Assembly (NCBI GenBank): GCA_016840645.1 | Contig: JAEORY010000018.1 | Coordinates: forward strand, 1 to 20,617 | Direction: 5' to 3' | DNA length: 20,617 nucleotides | Origin: Candidatus Borrarchaeota archaeon | Lineage (GTDB): Archaea; Asgardarchaeota; Sifarchaeia; Borrarchaeales; Borrarchaeaceae | Shown: piece after piece, positions 1,461-11,452 of the stretch | How positions within the stretch are numbered: the stretch's first letter is position 1 | How the letters are laid out: every line of letters starts with the position of its first letter | Program-made: the position numbers and the translations under genes | Notes under the pieces: generated by a model | Databases searched by the model: none | Told to the model about the DNA's origin: nothing | The model's input: only the letters and a program-made list of their open reading frames with translations

Positions 1461-2282
1461 ATGAAAACTGTGGTAATTGATAATGTAGAGCTTAGATTAG
1501 CCCATCCTGACAAATTAAGTGTGCAATGGATCGGACAGAAGGATCTCTTAAAGCAACTTATTGCCGCCTGGCTAGTAGTTGACGAAAAGGACATTCCACT
1601 AAACCCCCGCCTACTAGGAAAACCTGGAGTTGGAAAAACGACTTTAGCTTATGCAGCAGCAGAAGCAATTGGGCGAGAGGCGTACATTTTTCAAGCAACA
1701 ATGGATACCCGTCCAGAAGATCTTATTGTGACGCCAGTGATTTCGAGCGGAGGAGAAATAGCATACTGCGCATCTTCCCTTGTGACAGCAATGATAACTG
1801 GTGGAGTCTGTATTTTAGACGAAGGAAATAGGATGAGTGAAAAATCATGGGCATCCATTGCTCCCTTACTTGATTTTAGGCGCTATGTAGAGTCCATTAT
1901 CGCTGGTATAAAGATTCAGGCCCATCCTGGTTTCCGATTTGTAACAACAATGAATGAGGACGTAAGTACTTACGAGATTCCCGAATATATTCATTCGAGG
2001 CTTCAACCCCAGATAAAAATCGATTTCCCGGAGTGGGAAGAAGAGTTTCAAATTCTGAAATTTAACCTTCCCTTCTCAAACGATGAATTATTGAATTTGG
2101 TTGTTAATTTTCTTCAAAACGCTCACGCTGCGGATCGCCCCTATACTGTGAGAGACGGCATACATATTGCTCGATACATTTTGAAAATGGAAAAACAAAA
2201 AGCAAAAGGCGAATATAACGATCAAATGGTAGAGTTAGCAGTTGAACAAATTTTAGGAGAAGAAGCATTAGATTATTTATAG
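1461..2282 (+). CDS. MoxR-like AAA+ ATPase
   Basis: This is a single AAA+ module of 273 residues. Walker A is GKPGVGKT (53-60), Walker B is VCILDE (116-121), the sensor-1 asparagine is in TTMNED (N165) and a candidate arginine finger is R180 in HSRL. A helical lid follows with YTVRDGIHIARYIL. MoxR-type ATPases act as ring-shaped remodelling chaperones, often for a partner encoded next door with a VWA or other domain. The start is supported by GAGGT at 1450-1454. The next gene on the same strand is TraB-like. Without the 2297-2680 insertion the two genes would be about 15 nt apart, so a functional pair is likely. No VWA gene is present in the window. Confidence 0.85.
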   Translation: MKTVVIDNVELRLAHPDKLSVQWIGQKDLLKQLIAAWLVVDEKDIPLNPRLLGKPGVGKTTLAYAAAEAIGREAYIFQATMDTRPEDLIVTPVISSGGEIAYCASSLVTAMITGGVCILDEGNRMSEKSWASIAPLLDFRRYVESIIAGIKIQAHPGFRFVTTMNEDVSTYEIPEYIHSRLQPQIKIDFPEWEEEFQILKFNLPFSNDELLNLVVNFLQNAHAADRPYTVRDGIHIARYILKMEKQKAKGEYNDQMVELAVEQILGEEALDYL

Positions 2283-2288
2283 ATTTAA

Positions 2289-2296
2289 GATGATTG
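2289..2296 (+). repeat. 8-bp direct repeat, left copy (GATGATTG)
   Basis: GATGATTG at 2289-2296 recurs exactly at 2681-2688. The two copies bracket the GC-rich structured segment, and the right copy begins directly after its right-end motif. This looks like a target-site duplication. IS200/IS605 elements are not known to make one, so microhomology or a different insertion mechanism must be considered. Confidence 0.5.
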
Positions 2297-2670
2297 GCGG
2301 TAAGTCTCCTTGCGACAACTGGGAGATAAAAGCCGAAAGGTATTTATAGTTTTTTGCAAAGAATAGTTCTGATGACTATCGAGAGGAAAGCAGGGATACA
2401 AGACTCTCGATAGGAAGGTAGAAAAGAAGTCCCTGTGAGCTAGGGTTCGTACAGTTTCTAGCCAGAGTGGGTAACCGCGAAGGTAAAAGGATAATAGAAT
2501 TTGACGAATCTGTATGATGTGATGCTGGAACCTTAGGTTTCCTATCACAGAATGCCAAGTGAACGGGCCATCCTCTCTTGAGGATGATCTGTGACACACA
2601 GCCGAACGTAAAACGAAAGTTTCCCGCAAGGGTTGGGAGGACTCGCAGGAAGCACCATCCGCCAGGGTGG
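2294..2670 (+). ncRNA. Candidate structured RNA, family unassigned
   Basis: Many base-paired elements can be drawn by eye. The ends close on each other: TTGGCGG (2294-2300) with CCGCCAG (2659-2665), TCCTTGCGA (2307-2315) with TCGCAGGA (2643-2650) leaving one bulge, and CAACT (2316-2320) with GGTTG (2631-2635). Inside are hairpins with GNRA loops: GCC-GAAA-GGT (2332-2341), AAAC-GAAA-GTTT (2611-2622) and CCC-GCAA-GGG (2623-2632, competing with the CAACT pairing). A perfect 10-bp stem pairs 2376-2385 with 2404-2413; its loop base CAGGGA (2391-2396) pairs with TCCCTG (2430-2435), a pseudoknot. Further stems pair 2543-2549 with 2587-2593 around a TCTT-looped hairpin. Some pairings exclude each other. 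It may be an omega-like RNA of the element or an independent RNA. Confidence 0.45.
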
Positions 2671-2680
2671 AGCAGTTCAT
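2297..2680 (+). mobile_element. Candidate non-autonomous IS200/IS605-type element (TnpB-less, structured)
   Basis: The segment is much richer in GC than its neighbours (31 of 60 bases at 2581-2640 by hand count). Its right end reads GCAGGAAG (2645-2652), a hairpin CCATCC-GCCA-GGGTGG (2655-2670), then AGTTCAT (2674-2680). The TnpB element at 10791-11369 ends with the same order: GCAGGAAG, a 6-bp hairpin, AGTTCAC. Near its left end, a TATA-like box and the block GATGACTATCGAGAGG plus AAGCAGGGATA (2371-2398) match 10915-10950, with one mismatch and one 8-bp cagg-repeat insertion. No transposase frame is present; open frames on the minus strand look spurious. It separates the AAA+ and TraB genes. 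Alternatively it is a cellular RNA gene whose parts were picked up by the TnpB element. Confidence 0.55.
2341..2350 (+). promoter_or_regulatory. TATA-like box shared by both related elements
   Basis: TATTTATAGT at 2341-2350 lies about 21 nt before the conserved block GATGACTAT (2371). In the TnpB element CTTTAATAGT (10886-10895) lies 20 nt before the same block. Conserved spacing suggests a promoter with the transcript starting at the block. The box also forms one arm of a GAAA-loop hairpin, so it might instead be a left-end structure. Confidence 0.35.
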
Positions 2681-2688
2681 GATGATTG
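2681..2688 (+). repeat. 8-bp direct repeat, right copy (GATGATTG)
   Basis: This is the second copy of the repeat at 2289-2296. It starts immediately after the AGTTCAT right-end motif and ends one base before the ATG of the TraB-like gene. Confidence 0.5.
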
Positions 2689-2689
2689 T

Positions 2690-4528
2690 ATGATTCAATA
2701 TCAAAACGTCTATGTAGTTCCTTCTTTTCACTCAAAAATTCAATTTGCCTGTGAAGTCAGGAAACTATTTTTTGACATTCGTCCTGATGTAATTGCGGTT
2801 GAGTTACCAGAAGGTATACGCGACAAAGTCCTCGAAGGGATAAACCATCTTCCAAATATCTCTGTCGTACTTTATGCAGAAACGAAGAAGAAGAGCAAGT
2901 TTGCCTATATTCCGATAGATCCTGCGGATTCACTTATTGAAGCTATAAGATTAGGCTTAGAGTATAAGATACCAGTTGAATTCATAGATCTGGATGTGAA
3001 CAATTATAGAAATAAGCAATATAATTTTGGTGTTGAAGGATATTCTATTTCAAAAATTGGTCTTGAGAAATTTTATGAACTTATCTCATCATCTCATTTG
3101 ACAAAAAGTAATTACGGAACGAAGGATTACCAAAGAGAATTGTATATGACTAAAAACCTGAAACGTTTAATGAAGAACTACAAGAAAATCTTATTCGTTT
3201 TAGGAATGGCTCATTGGGAGAGGATAAAGGGGTTCTTGAACAGAACTAGGCTTAAGGATATTGAAAATGTTATAACAAGAGATGAAGTTAGACTATTCAA
3301 TCTTTCTCCAAAATCATACATAGAAGTTTTACGGGAAATCCCTTACATCACGTATCTGTATGAGTTCAATCGGAAGAACACTAAAACTCCCGAGGAATTT
3401 TTCGATAAATTAGAAGCATATAAGACGCTCTATTTGAATGCAAAAGATAATTATTTCAAAAACTTTGGAGAGCCAATTCGTCTTCAAAAAATGGAAAATA
3501 TACTGCAGTACTCTAGGAACTATGCATTTGTGGAAAATCGATTAATTCCCGACCTCTTTCATTTGGTGGTGTCAGCGAAAAACATTGTGGACGATGATTA
3601 TGCTGGGGAAGTATATGACCTTGCGATGAGTTATTTTTTCCAAGATAAAGAACAGAAATTCCCCACAATCGAAATAAAAAGAAAGAAGGGCTTATTTGAA
3701 GCTAGATCTGTACCATTGAGGAGACGTGTCCCCGTTGAAAAGACAGTTTATAGAAAAATTCCGTTGAAAAGACGACCAAAAGAAGAATACGAGGGGGAAT
3801 GGCAGGAGAAATGGGACGAAGAATATGAAGGTGTTTATTCATATCCACCCGAAGATCTCGTATTTGAGGATTACATGGCATATGTTCGTAGAAAAGCAAT
3901 GAAGATACTCATGGAGGATAAAGTAAAGATTCAGGAGTTCACTACAAGCCTTTTAGACGGTATCTCCATGAGAGACACCCTTCGTAACTGGCATATCGAT
4001 CAAAAATTATATATCAGGGAAGAACTTCCTCCAAAAGGCTCTATTGGACCCGTAGTATTTGTTTTTGAGGCAGATGATACCCTAACCCATGAATATTCCT
4101 ATCAGTTAGAGTGGCGACATGAACATGATGAAGAATCAGACCTATACCTTTATTCAACGTTTCCTGGAATCAATATCATTGGACCTGGCATTTCTCGTGG
4201 TGAGTATGGGGGATTTTGTTCGATTTTTCCACCTGGGGAATTTATTTACGATACAAGTTATTGGGATGAGTTTGATATAGTCCGAAATAAAGTTGATGAG
4301 TTATTATTGAAAGCTATTTTTTTAGCTGGCGATCATAAATATATCGTATATGCTGCAAAAAAGCCTCCTGATTCTTATTTGAAATCTTTAGCACGTAAAA
4401 GAGGTTTATATGTAATATATATCCCTTTAAATGAGTTTAATCCCTCTGTCATCAAAACGCTTCGAATAGTACATTTTCTAAATTCTACAAGAGTTCGAGA
4501 ATACGCGAAAGATTATATCTTTTTGTAA
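2690..4528 (+). CDS. TraB/PrgY-like family protein with long conserved-looking C-terminal region
   Basis: The N-terminal 200 residues have the TraB/GumN/ChaN pattern: SFHS (H14), RPDVIAVELPEG (31-42), PIDPADSLIEAIRLGLEYKIPVEFIDLD and LFVLGMAHWERI (168-179). Family members are thought to be metal-dependent hydrolase-like proteins, but the activity is poorly defined. Residues 330-430 are charged and probably flexible. Residues 454-612 form a second domain with EADD, RHEHDEESDLYLY and NIIGPGISRGEYGGF motifs that I cannot name. The frame is open from 2633, but those 19 codons lie in the structured insertion, so the ATG at 2690 is preferred. No strong SD precedes it. It is probably the partner of the MoxR-like ATPase: bacterial operons joining a MoxR ATPase with a TraB-related protein are known, and this pair may be an archaeal counterpart. 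It overlaps the convergent GTPase gene by 16 bp. Confidence 0.75.
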   Translation: MIQYQNVYVVPSFHSKIQFACEVRKLFFDIRPDVIAVELPEGIRDKVLEGINHLPNISVVLYAETKKKSKFAYIPIDPADSLIEAIRLGLEYKIPVEFIDLDVNNYRNKQYNFGVEGYSISKIGLEKFYELISSSHLTKSNYGTKDYQRELYMTKNLKRLMKNYKKILFVLGMAHWERIKGFLNRTRLKDIENVITRDEVRLFNLSPKSYIEVLREIPYITYLYEFNRKNTKTPEEFFDKLEAYKTLYLNAKDNYFKNFGEPIRLQKMENILQYSRNYAFVENRLIPDLFHLVVSAKNIVDDDYAGEVYDLAMSYFFQDKEQKFPTIEIKRKKGLFEARSVPLRRRVPVEKTVYRKIPLKRRPKEEYEGEWQEKWDEEYEGVYSYPPEDLVFEDYMAYVRRKAMKILMEDKVKIQEFTTSLLDGISMRDTLRNWHIDQKLYIREELPPKGSIGPVVFVFEADDTLTHEYSYQLEWRHEHDEESDLYLYSTFPGINIIGPGISRGEYGGFCSIFPPGEFIYDTSYWDEFDIVRNKVDELLLKAIFLAGDHKYIVYAAKKPPDSYLKSLARKRGLYVIYIPLNEFNPSVIKTLRIVHFLNSTRVREYAKDYIFL

Positions 4529-8818: not shown

Positions 8819-10789
8819 ATGAGTTCATCACTACTAACATACTTTCCATATTCAAATTTGAGACCTCATCAAGACAAATTAATTCTCCTTTCAAAAAAAG
8901 CCATTAAAAACGGACTTAATGCCATCATAGAGGCACCAACTGGTATCGGCAAGACTTTAGGTATATTAGCAGGAGTTCTTCCTGAATTAACTACGCATGA
9001 TATGAAATTGCTGTATGTTTGCAGAACTCACACACAAATGAAACGAGTAATCGAGGAACTACAGGCTATCGTAAAAGAGAAAGGACATGCAATCCAAGGT
9101 ATCGCCCTCAGTGGCAAACATGTAATGTGTGTCAAGTCAAGTATGCGTGATATGGATGCTGAAACGCTGAATGATACCTGTAATGCCATTAAGAAACGAT
9201 GTCCCTTTTTCCAACGAATGCAGAATTTTGACATCAACCCCCTGTTGCAAGACCTTTATTCGTGTCCGATGACTAGTCAGGATCTCTACTCATATGCAAA
9301 ATTCAATGGTATTTGTCCTTTTGAACTTCAGAAGAAGTTGTTACGAGAAATGGATGTGATTACCATCTCGTATCAATATCTGTTCCAACCGTTACTTCGT
9401 TATCATATCCTTGAACGATTCGTTGAGTTAAATTCCTGTTTTATCGTGTTGGACGAGGCTCATAATCTACCGTTCATCGCCAAGTCAATCATTTCCATGA
9501 ACCTGAGTTTAACTTCCATTGAGAAGGCACTTAGTGAGACGAAGGAATACCGACGCCTTTCACCGTTGAAACACCCCTCCAAATTAACCGACTTCTTATC
9601 AGATATCTATGTAAGAATCATCGAATATGCGCAGTCTAAGAGACTGAAAAGCAATAAAGAACTGAGGATCTATTCCCGAAAGGAATCAGGGAGTCACCGA
9701 AGTCATATCTCATTTTGTACAAATATCGAAGATCAAGATACCCTCAATTTCATTATCGAAAATACCGTTGCCTGGGGAGAGAAGATTCGAGAGTATCGAG
9801 CCGAAAAAGATGGGGTAGCCCGTTCATCATTATACAGTGTCGGCAAGTTCTTAAGATTACTGGAAAAAGCGGCAATCAATCCCGCCTTTGAAGCACTGCT
9901 CAAAAGGAGAAAATCAACCGACAAGCAAGCGTATCTGCTTGAGATTATTGCCTTTGATCCTCGTATCGTTACTCAACCAGTTTTTGACCGTATTTACGGA
10001 TCGGTTTCGATGTCAGGCACAATGCAACCGTTAAATGCCTATGCTGAAGTGGTGGGGATACACGATCCGTTATGTGAAGGCTTTAGTTCACCGTATAACA
10101 ACGATAATTTTCTGGTGTTGTGTACTCCGAAGTTACATACCAAAGGCGGTGGGCGAAAGATGACTTCGGGGATGCAAAAACTCTATGTGAATCGGATTAT
10201 GGAGGTGATTGCCAACACCAAAGGCAACACAGGCGTGTTCTGTGCCTCGTATGACGTACTCAAGGTATTAGAAGAACCACTATTGACTGAAATCGATAAG
10301 TTAGGACGATTTCTGTTTGTTGAGCAAGGACATAAGGCATCGTATGTGAATGATAAAATGATCCGCGAATTTAAAACACATGGAGACTTAGGAGGAGCAA
10401 CCTTATTAGGAGTAATGGGAGGGCGCAACTCTGAAGGACAGGATTTTCCAGGTAAGGAAATGTCTTCGGTCTGTATTGTTGGTGTGCCCTTCGCACCCTG
10501 GAATGTGAGGATGAAACTGGAGATCAATTACTATGAACAGACATTTCCCAGAAAAGGACGACTCTATGCATATACCATTCCCGCTATGAGACGCGCGGGA
10601 CAAGCGGCAGGCAGAGTCATTCGTTCATTGAAAGATCGTGGCATCATCATCTTCATGGATGAACGATACATGAAGGCTAACTACAATCGTTTTCTACCCA
10701 GATGGCTACGAGAAAACCTGAAGAAAACAAATATTAAACGTAGTAACTTAGGTGAAAGGATTCGAGATTTCTTTTCAATTCAAACTTGA
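8819..10789 (+). CDS. XPD/Rad3-type Fe-S helicase
   Basis: This superfamily 2 helicase of 656 residues has Walker A APTGIGKT (39-46), motif Ia YVCRTHTQ, DEAH (212-215), a SMSGTM motif III and motif VI RRAGQAAGRVIRS (about 589-601). Between Walker A and DEAH lie cysteines at 104, 121, 128, 149 and 166. By comparison with human XPD, C104, C121, C128 (CPFF) and C166 (CPFEL) are the likely 4Fe-4S ligands and C149 is extra. XPD unwinds DNA 5' to 3'; in archaea its job is probably repair. The gene is richer in GC than its neighbours (32 of 60 at 10201-10260 against 18 of 60 at 17281-17340), and its stop codon overlaps the TTGAC target motif of a TnpB element. A second copy of an XPD tail lies at 11372-11452. 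Recent acquisition is likely. Confidence 0.85.
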   Translation: MSSSLLTYFPYSNLRPHQDKLILLSKKAIKNGLNAIIEAPTGIGKTLGILAGVLPELTTHDMKLLYVCRTHTQMKRVIEELQAIVKEKGHAIQGIALSGKHVMCVKSSMRDMDAETLNDTCNAIKKRCPFFQRMQNFDINPLLQDLYSCPMTSQDLYSYAKFNGICPFELQKKLLREMDVITISYQYLFQPLLRYHILERFVELNSCFIVLDEAHNLPFIAKSIISMNLSLTSIEKALSETKEYRRLSPLKHPSKLTDFLSDIYVRIIEYAQSKRLKSNKELRIYSRKESGSHRSHISFCTNIEDQDTLNFIIENTVAWGEKIREYRAEKDGVARSSLYSVGKFLRLLEKAAINPAFEALLKRRKSTDKQAYLLEIIAFDPRIVTQPVFDRIYGSVSMSGTMQPLNAYAEVVGIHDPLCEGFSSPYNNDNFLVLCTPKLHTKGGGRKMTSGMQKLYVNRIMEVIANTKGNTGVFCASYDVLKVLEEPLLTEIDKLGRFLFVEQGHKASYVNDKMIREFKTHGDLGGATLLGVMGGRNSEGQDFPGKEMSSVCIVGVPFAPWNVRMKLEINYYEQTFPRKGRLYAYTIPAMRRAGQAAGRVIRSLKDRGIIIFMDERYMKANYNRFLPRWLRENLKKTNIKRSNLGERIRDFFSIQT

Positions 10790-10790: not shown

Positions 10791-10990
10791 GCCATTCCAT
10801 ATGAACCCAGCCACGCGGTGGTATTAATACTCCACATGTAAGATGTGCAGTTTGTGTTCACTTTCATCAAGGGGTCTGCCTAATACTTTAATAGTGGTGT
10901 GTCTATCATACTGAGATGACTATTGAGAGGCAGGCAGGCAAGCAGGGATAGCTACACAACTAAGATTTTGGTAGTATTACAGAGCAGACT

Positions 10991-11359
10991 ATGTTATCAG
11001 CGGCATTTGGAGGGCTAATACGCACACTTGCAGACAAGGTGCATACTCCCATCAAAGTCGATAGGTGGTTTCCTTCTACCAAAACCTGTTCGCGCTGTGG
11101 TACAATTCAGGACATAGAGTTGGCTGAACGAATCTATACCTGTCCGGTATGTGGGTTAGTGATGGACCGAGATCATAATGCAAGTGTTAACTTAGAACAC
11201 GAAGGTTTAAAACAACAAGTGGTACCTACGGGACGTAGGGATGTTAAGCCTGTGGAGACTGAATCCTCTATTGTGACATCGTTGGAATATTTAAATAGTA
11301 TTCCCTATGTGACAGCAAGTTCGGTCGTCGAAGCAGGAAGCCTCACTGCTTTAGCGTGA
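10991..11359 (+). pseudogene. tnpB: TnpB C-terminal fragment (RNA-guided nuclease, truncated)
   Basis: 122 residues match only the C-terminal part of TnpB: FGGLIRTLADK, then the zinc ribbon C33-SRC36 ... C51-PVC54, and the RuvC-III motif DRDHNASVN (59-67). TnpB is normally about 380-420 residues; the N-terminal RNA-binding domains and the RuvC-I and RuvC-II acidic motifs are missing, so nuclease activity is not expected. The frame ends inside the right-end hairpin, as is normal for tnpB, whose 3' end overlaps the guide RNA. The ATG at 10991 is only the first available start and has no SD. A remaining role in binding RNA cannot be excluded but is unlikely. Confidence 0.85.
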
Positions 11360-11369
11360 GGTAGTTCAC
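11333..11369 (+). ncRNA. Right-end hairpin / omega RNA 3' end of the TnpB element
   Basis: GCAGGAAG (11333-11340) is followed by CCTCAC (11341-11346) paired with GTGAGG (11356-11361), with an inner GC-TTTA-GC extension, then TAGTTCAC. This is the classic right end of tnpB elements and the 3' scaffold of omega RNA; the guide would be the flanking sequence starting at about 11370. Confidence 0.65.
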
Positions 11370-11371
11370 CG

Positions 11372-11452
11372 TTATGGTTACGAGAAAATATGAAACAGGT
11401 GAATATCAAACCTGGTAATTTAGGCAAAAAAGTAATGAGTTTTTTTAGTTAG
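11372..11452 (+). pseudogene. Tail of a second XPD-like helicase gene (5' part lost)
   Basis: Immediately after the element, a frame from about 11372 to a TAG at 11450-11452 encodes 25 residues that align with the last part of the XPD-like protein. WLREN, NIK, NLG and FFS are identical, and about 15 of 25 positions match overall. The DNA also aligns (TACGAGAAAA is identical). This copy is more AT-rich, like the host genome, and lacks the final three codons of the upstream gene. It is best explained as what remains of a resident or tandem helicase gene. Confidence 0.75.

Follow-up and report, generated by a model that had tools for sequence, protein, structure and literature searches.

The question raised by this locus is what separates an AAA_5/MoxR-type ATPase gene (positions 1461..2282) from a TraB/DUF5682-like gene (2690..4528) on the forward strand of a Candidatus Borrarchaeota contig, of which we analysed a stretch of 20,617 nucleotides, referred to here as the window. 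An earlier note had described the interval 2294..2680 as a GC-rich, heavily structured insertion without a convincing protein, possibly an undescribed structured RNA or element. Our analysis places the structured segment at 2289-2680 (392 nt), a slightly different extent, and bears out its character: its GC content is 46.7%, compared with 37.0% for the whole window, and RNA of the forward strand is predicted to fold with -133.9 kcal/mol (z -4.0; 0 of 100 shuffles equal), while the reverse strand reaches z -2.5 (1 of 100 shuffles equal). None of the 20,226 stretches of 392 nt in the window scan is richer in GC, although the earlier contrast with surroundings of 30-35% GC was overstated on the upstream side, where the preceding gene has 40.8% (the following gene has 35.4%). 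The minus strand of the segment holds two overlapping open reading frames of 148 and 119 aa, neither of which matches a Pfam family at E values up to 1, in agreement with the note's view that no protein is encoded; there is no transposase reading frame, for which the segment would be too short.

Searches against known RNAs gave no significant match either. No Rfam family matched in 2289-2680 at gathering thresholds, and none within 2294-2673 at E values up to 10; the five weak matches of this lax search lie outside or touch only the last bases from 2674 on. The covariance models of archaeal RNase P and SRP RNA, whose hallmarks the note had not recognised in it, did not match the segment at either threshold, and neither did group I or group II introns, which were also absent from six related loci, where Rfam recovered three tRNAs and one partial tmRNA and nothing else. 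A resemblance of GAGGAAAG to the CR-I region of RNase P, seen by eye, was dropped. No similar DNA was found in phage and plasmid collections. The segment contains four inverted pairs of at least 8 nt, none of which links the left end to the right end, and it thus has no terminal inverted repeats.

The two neighbouring genes provide a reference for the state without the segment. Their named best protein relatives are mostly from Helarchaeota. The TraB-like label of the gene at 2690..4528, which has no Pfam match of its own, is taken from the names of its relatives and from the PF18934 domain of some of them; in viral contigs, 30 stretches fit a pattern used for the protein, and none was a relative. 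The same pair of genes lies only 15 nt apart in Helarchaeota LW55_61 (L012), where the stop codon of the ATPase gene is followed by ATTTAAGTTGATATT and the ATG of the next gene. If 2289-2680 (392 bp) is taken out of the window, the ATG is preceded by ATTTAAGATGATTGT, a spacer of 15 nt and hence of the same length as in L012, and the segment is likewise absent from a second relative, L033. The stretch 2289-2680 is a mobile insertion.

Copies of it were sought in 227 genomes of the phylum to which L012 belongs. With at most three candidates scored per genome, at least 12 near-full copies with 81-86% identity were detected in four of the 227 genomes, and scoring of all candidates in those four and in two further genomes revealed many more full and partial copies. 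Altogether, 20 distinct full copies are available, that of the window and 19 in four Asgard genomes; they are 389-404 nt long, and the others are 77-86% identical to the window copy. TTTAA precedes the left end of 18 copies (in the window at 2284..2288) and CTTAA that of the remaining two, and 19 copies end in TTCAC, the window copy in TTCAT. The frame TTTAA, element, TTCAC is therefore defined from the 20 full copies, and together with the empty site in L012 it delimits the 392-bp element at 2289..2680. Flanking sequences differ from copy to copy, with the exception of L066 and L070, which represent one insertion common to two genomes. None of the copies interrupts an open frame that reaches 90 codons (at least 25 of them on each side, flanks joined); across the joined flanks of the window copy the longest open frame is one of 86 codons on the minus strand, compared with the cut-off of 90. 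The motif of the right end, GCAGGAARC-N(12-26)-GTAGTTCAC, occurs in 19 of the 227 genomes, and its reversed control gave no match; the individual places considered are the first ones in each genome (17 of 42 in genome G034).

Derivatives of other sizes were seen among the relatives. The 42 right-end pattern matches of G034 (L193-L207) include fetched loci with a recognised left end about 123-144 nt upstream of the motif, that is, miniature elements of about 170 nt, and L090/L094 (G177:C8:185652-185956) is a shorter derivative of about 300 nt that is devoid of query positions 139-228. In L093, about 30 nt of the omegaRNA module are inverted in place, with short complementary arms on either side.

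Longer elements with the same kind of ends encode full-length TnpB in the copy-bearing genomes. The most complete arrangement was observed for one insertion present in two genomes (L140/L142), which combines the left end with a TnpA of 156 aa (matching Y1_Tnp in L140), a TnpB 428-437 aa long and the right-end module also present in the segment; it is the only insertion in which a full-length TnpA was seen between such ends. Compared with TnpB-carrying elements, the left end of the segment shows 69-75% identity, 2444..2508 is 72-80% identical to the tnpB coding sequence before the zinc finger in 14 fetched TnpB loci, and 2537..2679, which corresponds to the 3' end of tnpB together with the right end and thus to an omegaRNA module, is 68-80% identical in 16 of 20 fetched loci. 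The coding sequence of the zinc finger, about 100 nt, is missing between these two matches. Judged by this pattern of similarity, the segment is an internal-deletion derivative of a TnpB-encoding IS200/IS605 element. The four genomes G175-G178 contain 20-47 TnpB (PF07282) matches each; TnpA (PF01797) is represented by one match in G177 and four in G178 (three above the cut-off), and no TnpA was found in G175 and G176, draft genomes holding many copies. For the genome of the window itself, we assume that matching TnpB and TnpA proteins are present.

Comparison of the 20 copies further yields a conserved fold, the consensus of which comprises 93 pairs in 13 helices, with 96.8% of cells paired and 15 pairs changed on both sides. 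None of 500 shuffles reached any of the five measures applied, and moving the partners by 1-3 columns reduced pairing to 37.6-44.4%; in these controls the consensus is favoured over the slid versions by having been derived from the same 20 sequences, and over the shuffles by the relatedness of the copies. On the forward strand, the fold begins with a left-end hairpin at 2295..2335, formed by helices 1 and 2 (2295-2298/2332-2335 and 2304-2310/2321-2327; 98.8% and 95.0% of cells paired). It is followed by a stem of the 5' domain at 2377..2412 (95.6% paired), whose loop sequence CAGGG is complementary to CCCTG at 2431-2435 and may form a pseudoknot with it; this pairing is found in 100% of cases but is nearly invariant, and it thus provides no evidence either way. 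A domain at 2432..2649, closed by helix 2432-2439/2642-2649 (96.9% paired), includes the tnpB sliver (2444..2508) with helices 6-7, and a right-end hairpin at 2652..2673 (helix 13, with double changes in four pairs) precedes GNAGTTCA[CT]. Helices 2 and 13 are palindromes near the two ends of the element. The end-to-end pairings proposed in the earlier note (2294-2300 with 2659-2665 and 2307-2315 with 2643-2650) are possible within the window sequence but differ from the conserved pairs: across the other 19 copies only 95/132, 53/76 and 53/76 cells are paired, compared with 94/95 and 53/57 for the conserved helix 2432-2439/2642-2649.

For two parts of the fold, larger or additional samples could be used. 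Among 104 distinct right ends, six of the seven tested pairs of the right-end hairpin exceeded all 500 shuffles, pair 5 did not (76 vs. a shuffle maximum of 81), and the eighth position is mostly unpaired. The 5' stem contains four doubly changed pairs among ten sequences; four of the five measures were reached by none of 500 shuffles, the fifth (further pair types) by 400 of them. In a search for this stem on its own (model R1, with 22 candidates per genome scored), it was detected in five of 227 genomes, four of which hold the element (the fifth with an E value of 5e-4). It was also seen outside full copies, namely in L141, inside a patch of about 500 nt described below, and in L154, where no element was recognised.

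Taken together, we consider it highly probable that the segment is a non-autonomous transposon of the IS200/IS605 family, a PATE with left and right hairpins and an omegaRNA scaffold, which would have been spread by TnpA acting in trans. The earlier view of an inserted structured RNA or element fits the empty orthologous site, the 20 copies of nearly constant length and the compensatory changes, and its suggestion of omegaRNA as a candidate proved a correct lead, for the 3' part corresponds to the omegaRNA formed by the tnpB 3' end and the right end. The epithet "undescribed" may hold for the family, of which, as of its conserved omegaRNA, our literature searches showed no earlier description, but not for the kind, which is known. 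In place of a structured RNA of unknown kind, the Asgard archaeon thereby has a well-delimited mobile element for which guide and target can be predicted.

Other identities have to be weighed against this. A stand-alone cellular structured RNA, as originally suggested, would account for the strong fold, the conserved length and the lack of an Rfam match; yet the segment is missing at the orthologous site in both L012 and L033, it is multicopy at varied intergenic sites without any conserved locus, and its ends and 3' half are common to tnpB elements, which together render a cellular RNA extremely improbable. We attach just as little weight to a self-splicing insertion similar to an IStron, a group I intron joined to an IS element (PMC4227781). 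The IS605 ends and the structured 5' domain are reminiscent of such an arrangement, but the segment has no Rfam match to group I or II introns, and no open frame of that minimum length (90 codons) is interrupted by any of the 20 copies.

A rather less likely but still appreciable alternative to a functioning omegaRNA is that the element is an inert fossil, that is, a PATE whose DNA hairpins serve TnpA, whose RNA is idle, and whose copies resemble each other due to recent spread. Many such elements are known (PMC3119063), the identity among the copies is compatible with recent spread, and a sliver of tnpB has been retained although no protein is evident. Against an idle RNA speak compensatory changes in interior helices far from the ends, in the tnpB-sliver hairpin (GC to UA in five of 20 copies) as well as in the 5' domain stem, and the conservation of 2589-2628 within the omegaRNA module, which belongs to the highest along the element, with a mean pairwise identity of 0.94-0.95 in a profile of the 18 copies whose left end fits the pattern.

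Among described systems, the segment resembles the PATEs of Haloquadratum (PMC3119063) and the PATE-like element of Halanaerobium (PMC7290912) in the lack of a transposase gene, in hairpins near both ends and in its origin by internal deletion from an IS605-type element. Those elements show no general target duplication; among the insertions of the present family, 37 of 42 conform to this, and the other five, the window copy included, are treated below. In the Halanaerobium element, a left end of 28 nt and a right end of 160 nt are kept along with the final 58 nt of tnpB (PMC7290912). In contrast to what is described for these PATEs, the family shows a conserved omegaRNA fold with covariation and carries an extra 5' stem with the possible pseudoknot, and some related insertions possess the guide-seed copies treated below. 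With the omegaRNA, or reRNA, of ISDra2 (PMC8612924) and SisTnpB1 (PMC10640517) it shares the combination of tnpB 3' end and right end with a guide from the flank, the ISDra2 reRNA being about 150 nt long with its last ~16 nt derived from the flank (PMC8612924). TTTAA at the left junction is also the TAM of SisTnpB1 of Sulfolobus islandicus, which cuts the non-target strand 15-18 nt from the TAM (PMC10640517), and we presume the same role for it here in addition to that of an insertion motif. Unlike ISDra2 and SisTnpB1, however, the segment carries no tnpB, so that TnpB would have to act in trans, and its fold includes a tnpB sliver joined by deletion to the 3' module. RF02656 and RF02657, halobacterial sense-overlapping RNAs that are omegaRNAs of archaeal IS200/IS605 elements (PMC12558985), differ from the segment, which matches neither.

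By analogy with the ISDra2 reRNA and from the anatomy of the element, the guide is expected to consist of the ~16-20 nt with which the right flank begins; in the window this predicted guide is GATGATTGTATGATTCAATA at 2681..2700 on the forward strand, and it extends over the start codon (2690) of the TraB-like gene. A mechanism can be proposed in which an internal deletion removed most of tnpB, including the zinc-finger part, from a TnpB-encoding parent, and TnpA supplied in trans would then have spread the product, inserting it 3' of TTTAA, with the hairpins serving single-strand transposition. The transcript of the AAA-TraB operon would supply the omegaRNA, which TnpB provided in trans would bind and process, the guide being whatever follows the right end. 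The TnpB-omegaRNA complex would recognise TTTAA plus guide at an empty site, leading to the element being copied back. Insertion 3' of a motif without target duplication has been described for the TnpA of ISDra2 (PMC8612924), and cutting of the empty joint by TnpB with subsequent copy-back has been proposed (PMC8612924; PMC11870625); the same sources report TnpB as a drive in plasmids, and what they offer in support of a retention or drive function is a model and laboratory work. If TnpB-less copies are indeed kept by TnpB in trans, guide-bearing miniature elements would be parasites of an RNA-guided retention system.

The left end of the window copy begins with GATGATTG (2289..2296, forward strand), the same 8 nt as those opening the right flank and thus the seed of its own predicted guide. 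Such own-guide matches directly after TTTAA are also present in L140/L142 (10 nt), L145 (9 nt), L146 (7 nt) and L236 (11 nt); L072 has one of 5 nt and is in neither of the two sets tested below, since its right end missed the pattern. Upstream of each of 129 distinct flanked right ends, as much as 2600 nt (the full 2600 nt for 77 of them, under 400 for nine) was scanned for a TTTAA that continues with the beginning of the element's own right flank, and eight rows, corresponding to seven independent cases, matched at least 7 nt of their own guide. Only 0.1 were expected from 200 exchanges of guides, to which the same best-of-all rule was applied with no preference for own-guide matches; L134 and L133 represent the same insertion, shared by two genomes. 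A complementary set comprises 42 independent insertions whose left end was recognised: in 33 of them the match is 0 nt long, in four it is 1-2 nt, and the remaining five have matches of 7, 8, 9, 10 and 11 nt. In 20,000 exchanges of flanks the number with matches of at least 5 nt was never above three; here, among several left-end candidates the guide-matching one was preferred, and the permutation was done without a new choice. As a control of the register, shifting either side by 1-6 nt abolished all matches of at least 5 nt.

L095 and L141 belong to the set of 129 right ends, and their matches are outside the five among 42, with no recognised left end at the match; L141 is counted among the 42 with a match of 0 at its element's own left end. 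Its T-rich seed copy of 10 nt leads into a stretch of about 500 nt that contains another right end; the 12-bp left flank GTACCTATTTAA then occurs a second time, followed by the element. In L095, no recognisable left end follows the seed copy. Both arrangements look like the outcome of break repair. In the other cases, the native 9-mer of the left end, C[AT]TTATCGG, is replaced and not displaced, the distance from TTTAA to the AAGT anchor remaining 11-13 nt as judged by eye. For the window, four of the eight matching nucleotides (ATTG) are also found in the native left end of L040, and the informative part of its match is thus about 4 nt.

The guide-seed copies are best explained as repair scars at a cut or excised donor site. 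A break at the donor joint would leave behind TTTAA with some of the guide; if this tail is incompletely trimmed, repair templated by a copy that carries the element would extend it and produce the guide-seed scar. We give somewhat less than even weight to the view that the copies are natural scars of RNA-guided retention, in which either TnpB-omegaRNA made the break or excision by TnpA was followed by one, with copy-back repair in both cases. The break of TnpA excision alone could yield the same scars without TnpB. If the retention reading is true, genomes carry a countable record of guided copy-back in which TnpB-less elements took part via TnpB in trans, and confirmed scars would offer a sequence-only assay of whether and how often copy-back repair occurs in nature. 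No earlier description of guide-seed copies was found in the literature searched, most subscription journals being outside its coverage.

One might suspect that the elements choose targets resembling their own left end, an idea that was rejected, as elements with C[AT]TTATCGG are not found beside such flanks. The 8-bp repeat at both ends of the window copy had also been considered as an ordinary target-site duplication, and direct repeats of 7-11 nt do flank these particular elements. A duplication would have pushed the native 9-mer inward instead of replacing it, 37 of the 42 insertions match only 0-2 nt, most insertions thus having no repeat, and insertion of ISDra2 makes no target duplication (PMC8612924); this explanation was dropped for the window and is very improbable for the group as a whole. 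It is also conceivable, but unlikely, that the seed copies are functional, a TnpB binding the left junction via the TAM and a 7-11-nt seed and thereby repressing excision or transcription; such a TnpB could be nuclease-dead and TldR-like. The exact register after TTTAA and the lengths of 7-11 nt would suit a seed with such a role, as would the active site of the partner TnpBs considered next. However, only five of 42 insertions have a copy, copies are also present in the tnpB-less window element and in L095 with its unrecognisable left end, and the duplicated 12-bp flank of L141 with its patch of ~500 bp resembles break repair.

Partner TnpBs of these elements carry Gly (VGDL, VGEL, IGEL, VGAL) where the structure 9yyg has Glu (VEDL), the latter being the canonical catalytic Glu of RuvC-II. 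This Gly is followed by Asp or Glu in four of five aligned full-length TnpBs and in six of the seven Gly-type motifs detected by pattern; the pattern search covered 22 proteins and yielded, besides these seven, two with Glu and 13 with no motif. Alignment with the ISDra2 chains (IIGTEHL) is gapped at RuvC-II and leaves the register ambiguous, and the Asp residues of RuvC-I and RuvC-III are kept in the Gly-type Asgard TnpBs where these motifs were seen. The partner TnpBs may thus be inactive, or have a shifted site, and may not cut. The group of Gly-type Asgard TnpBs comprises L043, L055, L100, L136, L140, L145, L146, L148, L153, L164, L173 and L178, with some overlap.

The window itself contains a further trace of a TnpB-encoding element at 10991-11369, a tnpB 3' remnant of 122 aa with a Cas12f1-like_TNB domain and a right end of its own, GCAGGAAGCCTCACTGCTTTAGCGTGAGGTAGTTCAC, at 11333-11369. 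It represents a different subfamily, with 31% identity to the TnpB of L140, and is preceded by a decayed copy of the 5' stem at about 10911-10950. Just past the remnant, the 3' end of an XPD-like helicase gene recurs in diverged form (10700-10789 vs. 11371-11452, compared by eye), which suggests that the insertion is bordered either by a duplication or by a second, broken gene.
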